DNA of 64,000 bases from Lachnospiraceae bacterium (lineage in GTDB: Bacteria; Bacillota; Clostridia; Lachnospirales; Lachnospiraceae): NCBI GenBank assembly GCA_017557525.1, contig JAFYYN010000043.1, forward strand, positions 81,672-145,671. The letters run 5' to 3'. Below, one piece after another: positions 19,782-29,059 of the stretch. The first letter of the stretch is position 1. Each line of letters begins with the position of its first letter. Position numbers and translations under genes: made by a program. The notes under the pieces were generated by a model that searched no databases, was not told where the DNA came from, and saw nothing but the letters and a program-made list of their open reading frames with translations.

Positions 19782-20714
19782 TTAGTCTGTGAATAATGCT
19801 GTTGAATAATATCTGTCGCCGCTGTCGGGAAGAAGTGCAACTATAACCTTGCCCTTGTTCTCGGGTCTCTTTGCAAGCTCTAAAGCTCCATGAAGAGCTG
19901 CGCCTGAAGAAATACCTACCGAAATACCTTCCTTCTTTGCAAGTAACTTAGCTGCTGCGAATGCATCAGCGCCTTCAGCCTTGAAGATCTCATCATAAAT
20001 TTTTGTGTTAAGGACATCAGGTACAAAGCCGGCGCCAATACCCTGGATCTTATGAGGGCCTGCCTTGCCTTCTGAAAGGACGGGTGAATCTGAAGGCTCA
20101 AGTGCTACTATCTTAACGTTGGGATTCTGTGACTTTAAGTACTCGCCTGTTCCGGTAAGTGTTCCGCCGGTACCAACGCCCGCGATAAAGATGTCAACCT
20201 TTCCGTCTGTATCTCTCCAGATCTCAGGACCTGTGGTTGCCTTATGTACTGCAGGGTTAGCGGGATTTACGAACTGTCCGGGGATAAAGCTGTTAGGGAT
20301 ATCCTTAGCAAGCTCTTCTGCCTTGGCAATGGCACCCTTCATGCCCTTTGCGCCCTCGGTAAGAACGATCTCAGCACCGTATGCCTTTAAGATGTTTCTT
20401 CTCTCAACGCTCATGGTCTCAGGCATGGTAAGGATGATCCTGTAGCCCTTTGCTGCTGCTATTGAAGCAAGACCGATACCGGTATTTCCACTTGTAGGCT
20501 CAATAATTACCGAACCTTCCTTAAGCTGACCCTTTGCCTCTGCATCCTCGATCATGGCCTTTGCGATACGATCCTTAACGCTTCCTGCGGGATTGAAATA
20601 CTCAAGCTTAACAAGTACTGTTGCCTCTAATCCCAGTTCCTTTTCAATATTTGTAACCTCTACAAGAGGAGTATTTCCTATAAGACCTAAAGTTCCTTTA
20701 TAAATGTTTGACAT
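19782..20714 (-). CDS. cysK: Cysteine synthase A (O-acetylserine sulfhydrylase)
   Basis: A 310-residue PLP enzyme that makes cysteine from O-acetylserine and sulfide. It has the PLP-lysine motif NPAGSVKDR, the substrate loop PTSGNTGIG, the phosphate loop [10 protein letters not shown] and a C-terminal [12 protein letters not shown], all in their usual places, and normal length. An AGAAGG ribosome site precedes the ATG. It follows metY by 34 nt on the minus strand, so both are expressed from the promoter at 22469-22497 and controlled by the leader ORF and terminator between 22122 and 22308. Confidence 0.95.
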
Positions 20715-20748: not shown

Positions 20749-22029
20749 TTATACTGCAGCGAATCCATTCTCTAAATCAGCGATAATATCGTCGATATGC
20801 TCTGTACCAATTGAAAGTCTGATCGTGCTCTGGTTGATGCCCTGATCTAAAAGCTCTTCCTCTGAAAGCTGCGAATGAGTGGTTGTGGCAGGGTGGATAA
20901 CCAGGCTCTTAACATCTGCAACATTAGCGAGCAGAGAGAAAATCTTAAGGTTATCAATAAACTTCCAAGCCTCTTCCTTGCCACCCTTGATATCAAATGT
21001 GAAGATTGAACCGCCGCCGTTAGGGAAGTATTTCTTGTAAAGCTCATGATCGGGATGATCAGGAAGTGAAGGGTGATTAACCTTTGCTACCTTAGGATGG
21101 TTCTTTAAGAACTCAACTACCTTCTTTGTGTTCTCTGCATGTCTGTCAAGTCTTAAGGACAATGTCTCAATGCCCTGAAGAAGAAGGAATGCATTGAAAG
21201 GAGAGATTGTAGCACCGGTATCACGAAGAAGTATTGCTCTGATGAATGTAACAAATGCAGCAGGTCCAACTACATCGTAGAAGGATACTCCATGATAGCT
21301 GGGGTTAGGAGCTGCAATGTTCGGATACTTTCCGCTTGCCTTCCAGTTAAACTTACCCGACTCAACGATTATACCACCAAGTGTGGTGCCATGTCCACCA
21401 ATAAATTTTGTAGCTGAATGAACTACGATGTCAGCACCGTGCTCGAAGGCTCTGAAAAGATAAGGTGTACCAAATGTATTGTCTACTACTACCGGAAGTC
21501 CGTACTTGTGAGCGATCTCTGCAATAGCATCTACATTGGGGATATCACTGTTGGGATTTCCTAAAGTCTCAAGATAGATGGCTCTGGTGTTATCTTTAAT
21601 TGCTCCCTCAACCTCTGCAAGGTTATGTGCATCAACGAAGGTTGTCTCGATACCGTACTGGGGAAGTGTATGTGCAAGCAGGTTGTAGCTGCCGCCGTAA
21701 ATCGTCTTCTGTGCTACTATATGTCCACCGTTAGCTGCTAAAGCCTCAATTGTATAGGTGATTGCTGCTGCACCTGATGCAAGTGCCAAAGCAGCGCTGC
21801 CGCCCTCAAGAGCCGCTATTCTCTTTTCCAAAACATCCTGAGTGGTGTTTGTAAGTCTTCCGTAAATGTTGCCTGCATCTGCAAGTCCAAATCTGTCTGC
21901 TGCATGCTTGCTGTTATGGAATACATAAGAAGTTGTCTGGTAAATCGGAACCGCCCTTGAATCTGTAGCGGGATCTGCCTGTTCCTGTCCAACGTGTAAC
22001 TGTAATGTCTCAAATTTATAATTGCTCAT
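20749..22029 (-). CDS. metY: O-acetylhomoserine sulfhydrylase (homocysteine synthase)
   Basis: A 426-residue Cys/Met-metabolism PLP enzyme that makes homocysteine from O-acetylhomoserine and sulfide, possibly also acting with O-acetylserine. The family signatures are QTTSYVF, GRLTNTTQDVLEKRIAALEGG, DNTFGTPYL and the PLP-lysine region HSATKFIGGHGT; the C-terminal RLSIGTEHIDDIIADL is typical. I placed the start at the ATG at 22029, with AAGGAG just upstream. It is the first structural gene of metY-cysK and sits downstream of a long leader with a Cys-codon ORF, a terminator and a repeated hairpin. Confidence 0.93.
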   Translation of the reverse strand: MSNYKFETLQLHVGQEQADPATDSRAVPIYQTTSYVFHNSKHAADRFGLADAGNIYGRLTNTTQDVLEKRIAALEGGSAALALASGAAAITYTIEALAANGGHIVAQKTIYGGSYNLLAHTLPQYGIETTFVDAHNLAEVEGAIKDNTRAIYLETLGNPNSDIPNVDAIAEIAHKYGLPVVVDNTFGTPYLFRAFEHGADIVVHSATKFIGGHGTTLGGIIVESGKFNWKASGKYPNIAAPNPSYHGVSFYDVVGPAAFVTFIRAILLRDTGATISPFNAFLLLQGIETLSLRLDRHAENTKKVVEFLKNHPKVAKVNHPSLPDHPDHELYKKYFPNGGGSIFTFDIKGGKEEAWKFIDNLKIFSLLANVADVKSLVIHPATTTHSQLSEEELLDQGINQSTIRLSIGTEHIDDIIADLENGFAAV

Positions 22030-22082: not shown

Positions 22083-22109
22083 GTGACAGAAGAACCGTCC
22101 CCCTGTCAC
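22083..22109 (-). repeat. Recurrent hairpin with GGGACGGTTCT loop, copy 1
   Basis: A perfect 7-bp stem GTGACAG / CTGTCAC encloses GGGGACGGTTCTT (minus strand). It lies between the attenuator terminator and metY. The loop core GGGACGGTT recurs at 56552-56579 with a different stem, as expected of a dispersed hairpin family. Confidence 0.65.
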
Positions 22110-22121
22110 ATTTTTCGGGAC

Positions 22122-22156
22122 AATTAAAAATGCCCGAGGCACGACTGCTCCCGGGC
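22122..22156 (-). terminator. Attenuator terminator in the metY-cysK leader
   Basis: On the minus strand GCCCGGG pairs with CTCGGGC (one G-U) and is followed by ATTTTTAATT. Its 5' arm GCCCGGGAG is the exact complement of CTCCCGGGC inside the upstream leader ORF (22247-22255), giving a mutually exclusive antiterminator. Confidence 0.75.
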
Positions 22157-22185
22157 AAAATGGCTTGAAGAATGTATTTTATAGT

Positions 22186-22308
22186 TCAACATCGTTCAGT
22201 TATGAGGCGCATGAAATACTCATCGAACGCCCCAGCCATATTACGTGCCCGGGAGTTTTGCATTCGACAACAACACATGACGTAAGTTTTCTTATATGTC
22301 TTTGTCAT
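22186..22308 (-). CDS. Cysteine-codon leader peptide upstream of metY-cysK
   Basis: A 40-codon ORF from ATG at 22308 to TGA at 22186 with a strong GGAAAGGAGCG ribosome site 8 nt upstream. The peptide begins MTKTYKKTYVMCCCRMQN; codons 12-14 are TGT TGT TGT (22267-22275) and the last sense codon is also TGT. Eleven nucleotides after the Cys run comes CTCCCGGGC, which can pair perfectly over 9 bp with the 5' arm of the terminator at 22122-22156. The downstream genes make cysteine and homocysteine. This is the layout of ribosome-mediated attenuation: stalling at Cys codons when Cys-tRNA is short should favour antitermination (inference). No SAM-riboswitch core or T-box was seen in the leader. Confidence 0.72.
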   Translation of the reverse strand: MTKTYKKTYVMCCCRMQNSRARNMAGAFDEYFMRLITERC

Positions 22309-22468
22309 ATATTCCACGCTCCTTTCCTGAAATTTATAAAACTTTTTCTTTCTTAATTGTTATGTACCCTATAACCTTTGATCTTAGCGGTACATGACTA
22401 TTTGTTTATCGGAAGTCTCCTGTTTAGATCTGCTCTGTGCGATCGGTCTTGTTTCATCCGATGTGTAT

Positions 22469-22502
22469 GTTATATCATAATTAACCTACTATGTCAATAG
22501 GT
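22469..22502 (-). promoter_or_regulatory. metY-cysK promoter with Rrf2-type operator
   Basis: TTGACA (22492-22497), a 17-nt spacer ending in TATGA, and TATAAC (22469-22474) form a strong promoter. A 19-bp partly palindromic site ACCTATTGACATAGTAGGT (22484-22502) covers the -35. It matches a site at the rrf2 gene promoter at 13 of 19 positions. Confidence 0.75.
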
Positions 22503-22517
22503 TTTTGAAAAATTTTT

Positions 22518-22919
22518 TTATTTTTTTATCAGATCCGATAATTTCTTATTATCAAAGAAGTCATGTACGAGCTTGTCAAACTCTTCCCACATAGGTAAAG
22601 TCTGGCATCCGTCCTTTCTCGGACATATGATATCTTTCCCCGCAACACAGGCTACAGGGGACATTGTACCCTCCATAAGCTCGAGAATCTCTCCTACCGA
22701 ATACTCCTCCGGCTTTCTGCACAGCTTATATCCGCCGCCTTTTCCGCTGGCACCTACTACCAGCCCTCCGGCAACCATATCCTTTACTATTATCTCAAGA
22801 TATTTCTTTGAAATCTGCTGCCTCTCGGCTATATCTTTTAATGGGATATAATTCCCGTCATGATTTTCTGCTAGGTCTATCATTACACGTATGGCATATC
22901 TGCCTCTGGTTGAAATCAT
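22518..22919 (-). CDS. Rrf2-family transcriptional regulator (IscR/CymR-like)
   Basis: A 133-residue winged-helix regulator of the Rrf2 family: ISTRGRYAIRVMIDLAE start, recognition helix region ISKKYLEIIVKDMVAGGLV and the wing GKGGGYKLCRKP. Three cysteines at the C-terminal side (C-x7-C-x5-C in ACVAGKDIICPRKDGC) are arranged much like the Fe-S ligands of IscR, although the first spacing is longer, so an Fe-S or thiol sensor is plausible. I used the ATG at 22919, with GGAGG before it. It ends just downstream of the metY promoter and runs in the same direction, but metY has its own promoter. A role in cysteine metabolism is inferred from position and a shared operator. Confidence 0.85.
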   Translation of the reverse strand: MISTRGRYAIRVMIDLAENHDGNYIPLKDIAERQQISKKYLEIIVKDMVAGGLVVGASGKGGGYKLCRKPEEYSVGEILELMEGTMSPVACVAGKDIICPRKDGCQTLPMWEEFDKLVHDFFDNKKLSDLIKK

Positions 22920-28894: not shown

Positions 28895-29050
28895 CCTTTT
28901 CCTAAAATCTGAAAGGAAGCTATCAAAAAAGCTTCCCCGACCAAAATCAGGAAAGCTGTAAATATCATTATTACATCAATCCCTCGGCAGGCGTCTGTAT
29001 CAGAACTTACACTATAAGTACCTGCTGTCTTCGGTCATGCTGTTTTCACA
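28895..29050 (-). promoter_or_regulatory. L10 ribosomal-protein leader RNA
   Basis: The minus strand upstream of rplJ contains ACCGAAGACAGCAGGTAC and, 45 nt on, CCTGCCGAGG, which pair and match the known L10 leader to which L10(L12)4 binds for feedback control. A second hairpin GGAAGCT / AGCTTCC (28915-28936) lies just before the ribosome site. Confidence 0.8.
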
Positions 29051-29059
29051 ACAAATGGT

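Follow-up and report, generated by a model that had tools for sequence, protein, structure and literature searches.

A predicted cysteine-codon attenuator ahead of metY-cysK in a Lachnospiraceae genome and its counterparts before sulfur genes of Bacillota

The window, by which we mean the whole 64,000-nucleotide stretch of Lachnospiraceae DNA analysed here, carries on its minus strand a metY-cysK pair preceded by a leader, with a gene of the Rrf2 family directly upstream of that leader (Table 1). The interval 22122–22308 singled out by the original prediction spans the leader ORF through the terminator, and every part it listed can be found on the minus strand: an ORF of 40 codons preceded by a good ribosome site, a TGT TGT TGT run and, past an 11-nt gap (CGAATGCAAAA), the arm CTCCCGGGC (region 2), an exact 9-bp complement of the terminator 5' arm GCCCGGGAG. 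The latter strand is shared, serving both as terminator 5' arm and as antiterminator 3' arm (region 3), so that the two states are mutually exclusive. An ORF with a ribosome site, a run of Cys codons and alternative antiterminator and terminator structures, the features by which a leader-peptide attenuator is recognized, are thus predicted on a single RNA. The terminator has a folding energy of −18.9 kcal/mol and the 256-nt leader a fold z of −3.69; across 11 genes of this genome, Cys accounts for 50 of 4981 codons (1.0%). The promoter-like elements were missing from the output of a consensus scan, which demands a T at the last −10 position.

Table 1. Features of the metY-cysK locus and its leader, in window coordinates.
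Feature	Position	Strand	Basis
cysK, cysteine synthase A	19782..20714	-	TIGR01139 450.9 bits, cut-off 350.95
metY, O-acetylhomoserine/O-acetylserine sulfhydrylase, ATG 22029	20749..22029	-	TIGR01326 625 bits, cut-off 495.1
Predicted intrinsic terminator: 5' arm GCCCGGGAG 22156-22148, 3' arm CTCGGGC 22138-22132, U-tract 22130-22126	22126..22157	-	sequence, folding
Inner antiterminator 3' strand AGCCAT	22160..22165	-	pairing and covariation in both alignments
Leader ORF: ATG 22308, 40 codons, peptide MTKTYKKTYVMCCCRMQNSRARNMAGAFDEYFMRLITERC, TGA 22188-22186	22186..22308	-	sequence; counterparts in relatives
Second Cys site: CGA TGT abutting the stop codon	22189..22194	-	sequence
Hairpin inside antiterminator: GGGGCG 22233-22228 with CGCCTC 22209-22204	22204..22233	-	pairing and covariation
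Inner antiterminator 5' strand ATGGCT	22234..22239	-	pairs with AGCCAT 22165-22160
Antiterminator 5' arm (region 2) CTCCCGGGC	22247..22255	-	pairs with 22156-22148
CGA ATG: rare Arg codon and Met, abutting the Cys run	22261..22266	-	CGAATG in 69/76 held-out leaders
Putative control codons TGT TGT TGT (Cys12-14)	22267..22275	-	sequence
Leader-ORF Shine-Dalgarno AAGGAG	22319..22324	-	sequence
Promoter-like TTGACA 22497-22492, 17-nt spacer, TATAAC 22474-22469	22469..22497	-	read by eye
Candidate Rrf2 operator: palindrome ACCTATTGACATAGTAGGT over -35 box	22484..22502	-	sequence
Rrf2-family regulator, directly upstream of leader	22518..22919	-	TIGR00738 111.1 bits, cut-off 73.3

Alignment of metY leaders from relatives, the check proposed along with the original prediction, bears out this arrangement. 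Of 61 related genomes 57 gave a metY match, from which the 30 best loci were made; to these were added, from named records, the best 80 among 559 relatives, the record titles being mostly Lachnospiraceae or other Clostridia, many of them ruminant-derived. Once L002, which has no DNA upstream, and five duplicates were set aside, 104 upstream regions remained, two of them shorter than 300 nt. A Cys ORF, region 2 or an equivalent arm complementary to the terminator, and the terminator itself occur together in 43 of the 104; the element is absent from 59 of the 102 regions of at least 300 nt, a few of which hold short Cys leaders of a different kind. The 43-row set was delimited by hand, excluding L019, L021, L030, L058 and L065, whose Cys leader lacks the terminator pattern, and L027, L047, L063, L068, L075 and L078, judged to be chance occurrences of CGAATG. 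Within it 89.9% of antiterminator cells are paired (88.7% for the inner hairpin GGGGCG/CGCCTC) and 13 pairs show double changes, the observed value being reached by none of 500 shuffles on any of five measures. The arms themselves change in concert, as in L100 (CTCTCAGAC with GTCTGGGAG) and L110 (CTCCCGGAC with GTCCGGGAG). An RNAalifold consensus of the alignment contains the terminator hairpin only, as expected since the two states exclude each other.

A second, short class of leader precedes metY in L019, L021, L030, L073 and L090, with a GRM core, Cys codons near the stop and no recognized intrinsic terminator, possibly representing another mode of attenuation. Two of these loci, L090 (Treponema zioleckii) and L073 (in a record titled Treponema), combine a short Cys leader with a metY 88–89% identical to that of the window, a likeness that reflects either transfer between rumen phyla or, for the metagenome-assembled genome, mis-binning.

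A broader comparison made use of a covariance model built from 33 leaders, whose start was placed after the Cys codons. Counting the window's own genome in every draw, the model matched 47 of 397 genomes of the family Lachnospiraceae (62 places) and, in wider draws that yielded some matches in other families, orders and classes, 19 of 295 genomes from the order, 12 of 391 from the class and 15 of 398 from the phylum. The phylum draw includes ten matches at E 3.9e-5 to 9.4e-4 that have no Cys leader and were taken as chance, and in the leaders of three strong matches outside the class (L247–L249) there is at least one Cys. Of the family places 57 were fetched (all but the site in the window, that of L015 and three weak ones), and at 55 of these the predicted peptide contains at least two Cys at any position, L166 and L194 being picked in the wrong frame there. 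The predicted peptides of L198 (MKNNKMNFHMTPGMDF) and L199 (MKKLDMIVSMAPGIFI) contain no Cys; these are weak model matches, Cys-free leaders with a terminator-like end, and perhaps belong to another leader-peptide family or arose by chance.

When all 100 fetched matches not identical to the first set are sorted by E, at least one Cys codon stands before region 2 in 77 of the 78 below 1e-5, and at least two in 66. By band, two or more are found in 53 of 63 below 1e-9 (at least one in 62, the exception being L234), in 8 of 10 between 1e-9 and 1e-6, in all five between 1e-6 and 1e-5, and in 9 of 22 between 1e-5 and 1e-3. Since the remaining 13 of those 22 have fewer than two, the weak matches of the model are a mixture. 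A held-out set of 76 was obtained by leaving aside four matches identical to the first set and 24 loci picked as weak by hand; no strict E rule was applied, L190, L191 and L243 being kept and L192 and L193, of similar E, dropped. Thirteen of the loci labelled weak make no fair control, because they were chosen after the absence of a Cys leader was visible. Aligned with the window (77 rows), the held-out leaders have 86.0% of antiterminator cells paired and double changes at 14 pairs and in 71 cells, against shuffled means of 8.9 and 22.8, and none of 500 shuffles reached the observed value on any of the five measures. The outer helix CTCCCGGGC/GCCCGGGAG is 96.5% paired, with double changes at five of nine pairs, and the inner helix ATGGCT/AGCCAT, for which four pairs were counted, is 88.0% paired with double changes in each. 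The inner hairpin is the weakest helix at 68.3%, with double changes at five of six pairs.

The reading frames of the held-out leaders, chosen by a procedure blind to Cys, have one or more Cys codons ahead of region 2 in 75 of 76 cases and two or more in 64 (a single one in 11, none in one), as compared with 138 and 32 of 574 random ORF positions at the same loci. A Shine-Dalgarno score of at least 4 is found in 68 of the 76. The last such Cys codon most commonly lies 10 nt from the model start (48 of the 75 leaders having one), roughly the downstream reach of a ribosome. In all 76 the stop codon falls past region 2, 8–76 nt (median 29) before region 3, the ORF of L234 being unconvincing. Cys is encoded in these ORFs by TGT 240 times and by TGC 72 times, and is the last codon of 21 leaders, preceded by CGA in 16. 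An early reading-frame test was set aside as weak, since Cys codons are common in two frames.

CGA is the rarest Arg codon, used for 2 of 208 arginines in 11 genes of the window's genome and for 31 of 963 in 74 downstream genes of the compared loci, and it constitutes 88 of the 98 Arg codons adjoining Cys in the held-out leaders, the set employed for these counts because the first set had been anchored on CGAATG. Among the remaining Arg codons of these leaders, region 2 excluded, CGA makes up 30 of 143 (Fisher p 8e-28, a value that overstates independence, the rows being related sequences). The CGAATG motif is missing from seven of the 76 leaders, five of which retain the ATG. Pairing in a protector helix was considered as a sufficient cause of its near-invariance and rejected, its two A positions being paired in 22 and 24 of 43 rows without covariation. 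A role as a slow codon is plausible, since CGA placed in the Salmonella his leader causes strong de-attenuation (PMC4046918). We tentatively propose, as a possibility rather less likely than its converse, that the switch reads a Cys-Arg(CGA) codon pair rather than Cys codons alone, at an early site (TGT-CGA-ATG) and, where present, at a stop-proximal one (CGA-TGT-stop), where CGA would either be an inherent delay, fixing the basal timing and making the response sharper, or provide a second input, and that this two-site design rules a multi-class cysteine regulon of Bacillota including an encapsulin sulfur compartment. CGA next to control codons offers a testable point on codon choice in attenuators.

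The genes behind the leaders connect them to sulfur. Within the first three downstream ORFs, 48 of the 57 family places have a Cys/Met PLP enzyme, a cysK-like gene or a component of an amino-acid-type ABC importer, these groups overlapping (28 with a metY- or cystathionine-lyase-type enzyme, 20 with a cysK-like gene, 24 with an importer component); gene clusters were named from scanned representatives, the remainder by eye. Two of the other places have only nitrogenase-like genes and seven no named cluster, L157 and L179 having no downstream ORF on cut contigs. Family matches place two of these nine, L170 and L191, among sulfur loci, the former carrying a (2S)-3-sulfopropanediol dehydratase (1397.7 bits, cut-off 1000). 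The latter (L191/L202; L202 1074–10400, G000:C37) has a second leader, MIANNTFYQNTVMCCRMYRFGHIMCPEHSALYCCVPV, in the window's own genome, with a model E of 2.0e-6. The same-strand row behind it starts with a desampylase-like protein (61.7 bits, under the cut-off of 130) and a MoeB/ThiF-type protein, continues with the shell protein of a family 2A encapsulin (493.7 bits, cut-off 380), the cysteine desulfurase that is its cargo (788.9, just below 800), a second MoeB/ThiF-type protein and a small protein that is JAMM-like by eye and has no NCBIfam match, and ends with an enzyme similar to OAH sulfhydrylases (416.3 bits, cut-off 495.1) and a gene similar to cysE (160.7, cut-off 210.65). This row may well form one operon, and its position suggests that encapsulin expression is under cysteine attenuation; in a cyanobacterium, a family 2A encapsulin shell and its cargo are described as rising upon sulfur starvation (PMC8049743).

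Taken across loci, the element marks a predicted sulfur regulon of several operons in many genomes of the family and in some other Bacillota. Its presence before importers, the sulfopropanediol dehydratase, nitrogenase-like genes and the encapsulin row may give clues to the function of poorly annotated genes. At L197 and L200 a Cys leader is found before nitrogenase-like genes (best match at L197 nifE, 169.9 bits, cut-off 505.1), which we take to be perhaps those of a methylthio-alkane reductase. At L167, L180 and L201 it precedes a protein resembling a glutathionyl-hydroquinone reductase, for which L167 gives no NCBIfam match.

In the his and trp attenuators of enterobacteria, stalling of the ribosome at codons for the operon's own amino acid decides between antiterminator and terminator. 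We regard it as highly probable (about 0.88) that the leader described here is likewise a ribosome-mediated transcription attenuator, gauging charged tRNA-Cys ahead of metY-cysK. When cysteine is short, a ribosome started at 22308 would stall on the TGT run with its footprint ending just before CTCCCGGGC, leaving this arm free to pair with the emerging GCCCGGGAG, and such pairing would block the terminator so that RNA polymerase could proceed into metY-cysK. With ample cysteine, the ribosome would cross region 2 towards the stop codon inside the antiterminator loop, some 30 nt before region 3, disrupting the antiterminator and allowing the terminator to form. Control by cysteinyl-tRNA supply, as originally proposed, is supported by the observed anatomy, its conservation, the covariation of the antiterminator and the sulfur-gene link, all established by comparison of sequences, from which we infer a response to cysteine; stalling from a shortage of Cys-tRNA, the direction of the response and its kinetic control would follow from the model.

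Folding calculations bear on the last of these points. In 39 of the 43 leaders examined as naked full-length RNA at equilibrium, the antiterminator wins in 30 and the terminator in nine, and masking a stalled ribosome shifts the balance little (31 and eight). Equilibrium folding thus does not switch between the states, and the choice would need to be made kinetically. As long as the terminator 3' arm has yet to be transcribed, all 39 form the antiterminator, masked or not, and in RNA that still lacks region 3 stalling lowers the pairing of region 2 only from 0.62 to 0.42. Since naked RNA favours the antiterminator, termination at ample cysteine must be brought about either by ribosome occupancy or by a protector hairpin (TCGAATG/CGTTCGA with TCCCGG/CYGGGG) with only partial conservation, 78% of its cells being paired without covariation in the 43 leaders. 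Occupancy would fit, the ORF spanning the antiterminator arm and ending in its loop.

Sulfur control in Bacillota is usually ascribed to T-boxes, S-boxes and CymR (PMC2940859). The original prediction saw none of these, and for the RNA this holds: the T-box model RF00230 has no match in the window at gathering score or in the leader at E up to 10, and the SAM/S-box RF00162 matches neither window nor leader. At the promoter, absence of CymR-type control is doubtful, given the Rrf2 gene and the palindrome over the −35 box. The Rrf2 protein scores 93.2 bits against IscR (TIGR02010, cut-off 207.55) and 87.8 against CymR (NF047409, cut-off 195), and since both fall under their cut-offs it is certified as neither; it can be called CymR/IscR-like, and ACCTATTGACATAGTAGGT, a DNA site outside the RNA, is its candidate operator. 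That metY-cysK is governed mainly by this repressor, with a minor or constitutive attenuator, appears unlikely, if worth serious attention. The gene adjoins the metY leader, and a loose regular expression finds a box related to ACCTATTGACATAGTAGGT in 34 of the 43 metY upstream regions that carry the leader, against 22 of 59 others; the same expression fails to find it in nine of the 43, and the leader is conserved and covarying and therefore under selection. Repressor and attenuator can also coexist as two layers of control.

A ligand-binding riboswitch or a tRNA-binding element, be it S-box, T-box or an unknown kind, with the ORF incidental, would equally place a covarying structure before sulfur genes, and we consider it very improbable. 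No Rfam family is matched at gathering score by the window leader or ten other loci, nor does a search of the window leader at E up to 10 return anything better than E 6. The conserved structure consists, instead, of antiterminator and terminator, and the ORF with its Shine-Dalgarno sequence and Cys codons is retained even though the residues ahead of the Cys run are highly variable. Elsewhere the window's genome has one SAM riboswitch and nine T-box matches, four above cut-off, the eight best preceding tyrS, metG, valS, thrS, serS, serC, a TrpB-like gene and ileS, none a cysteine gene. A functional Cys-rich small protein (a metal or redox peptide) followed by an ordinary terminator is scarcely credible in spite of the recurrent core CCRMxxSRA, as SRA is mostly written TCC CGG GCN, the strand pairing with region 3, the N-terminal part differs among leaders, the C-terminus varies in length and sequence, and four of the peptides, when scanned, matched nothing in NCBIfam and had a single Pfam match, at E 0.077.

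On comparative evidence, then, the element is a real and widespread predicted cysteine-codon attenuator, of which the window copy is a typical member. To our knowledge, few cases of leader-peptide attenuation are known in Bacillota. Polycysteine ORFs of mycobacteria are reportedly leaderless, going by the title of Canestrari 2020, and are said in a paper citing it to act by translation attenuation. Their occurrence as short ORFs of cys operons had been predicted earlier (PMC1262725, PMC4633059). They share with the present leaders a Cys-codon ORF upstream of cysteine genes and, presumably, cysteine-responsive attenuation, but differ in that they are leaderless, have their Cys codons near the stop and reportedly come with no conserved terminator hairpin, whereas the leader here has a Shine-Dalgarno sequence, places its main Cys codons ahead of the antiterminator arm and includes an intrinsic terminator together with a covarying antiterminator. 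The uORFC-8-2 motif, for which ribosome-mediated attenuation was proposed, is reported only upstream of cysS in Rhodobacterales (PMC8632094). It resembles our leader in its tandem Cys codons (two, usually at positions 14–15) and terminator, yet its first stem, as described there, contains the Cys codons, unlike here; the window leader is matched by no Rfam family. Histidine leader peptides of hisS/hisZ in bacilli (PMC2965389), like the his/trp attenuators, share stalling at codons of the pathway's amino acid, with a different amino acid and different genes. In Clostridium perfringens, cysteine T-boxes set premature termination before cysK and transporters according to tRNA-Cys charging (PMC2940859); such a T-box binds the tRNA directly, whereas a translated ORF would be used here. 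The same source allows that clostridia without the T-box may have other mechanisms. Among the open PubMed Central full texts searched, no description of the element in Bacillota was found; the kind is known from Actinobacteria and Rhodobacterales, and what is new, as far as these searches reach, is its regulon in Bacillota, the pairing of CGA with the Cys codons and the link to an encapsulin.

Two further features of the window deserve mention. Between terminator and metY, at 22083–22109, lies a palindromic repeat, GTGACAGGGGGACGGTTCTTCTGTCAC, of which the genome holds 26 copies at no more than two mismatches, several as inverted neighbours, and a ribosomal protein L10 leader (RF00557) is located at 28916–29052.
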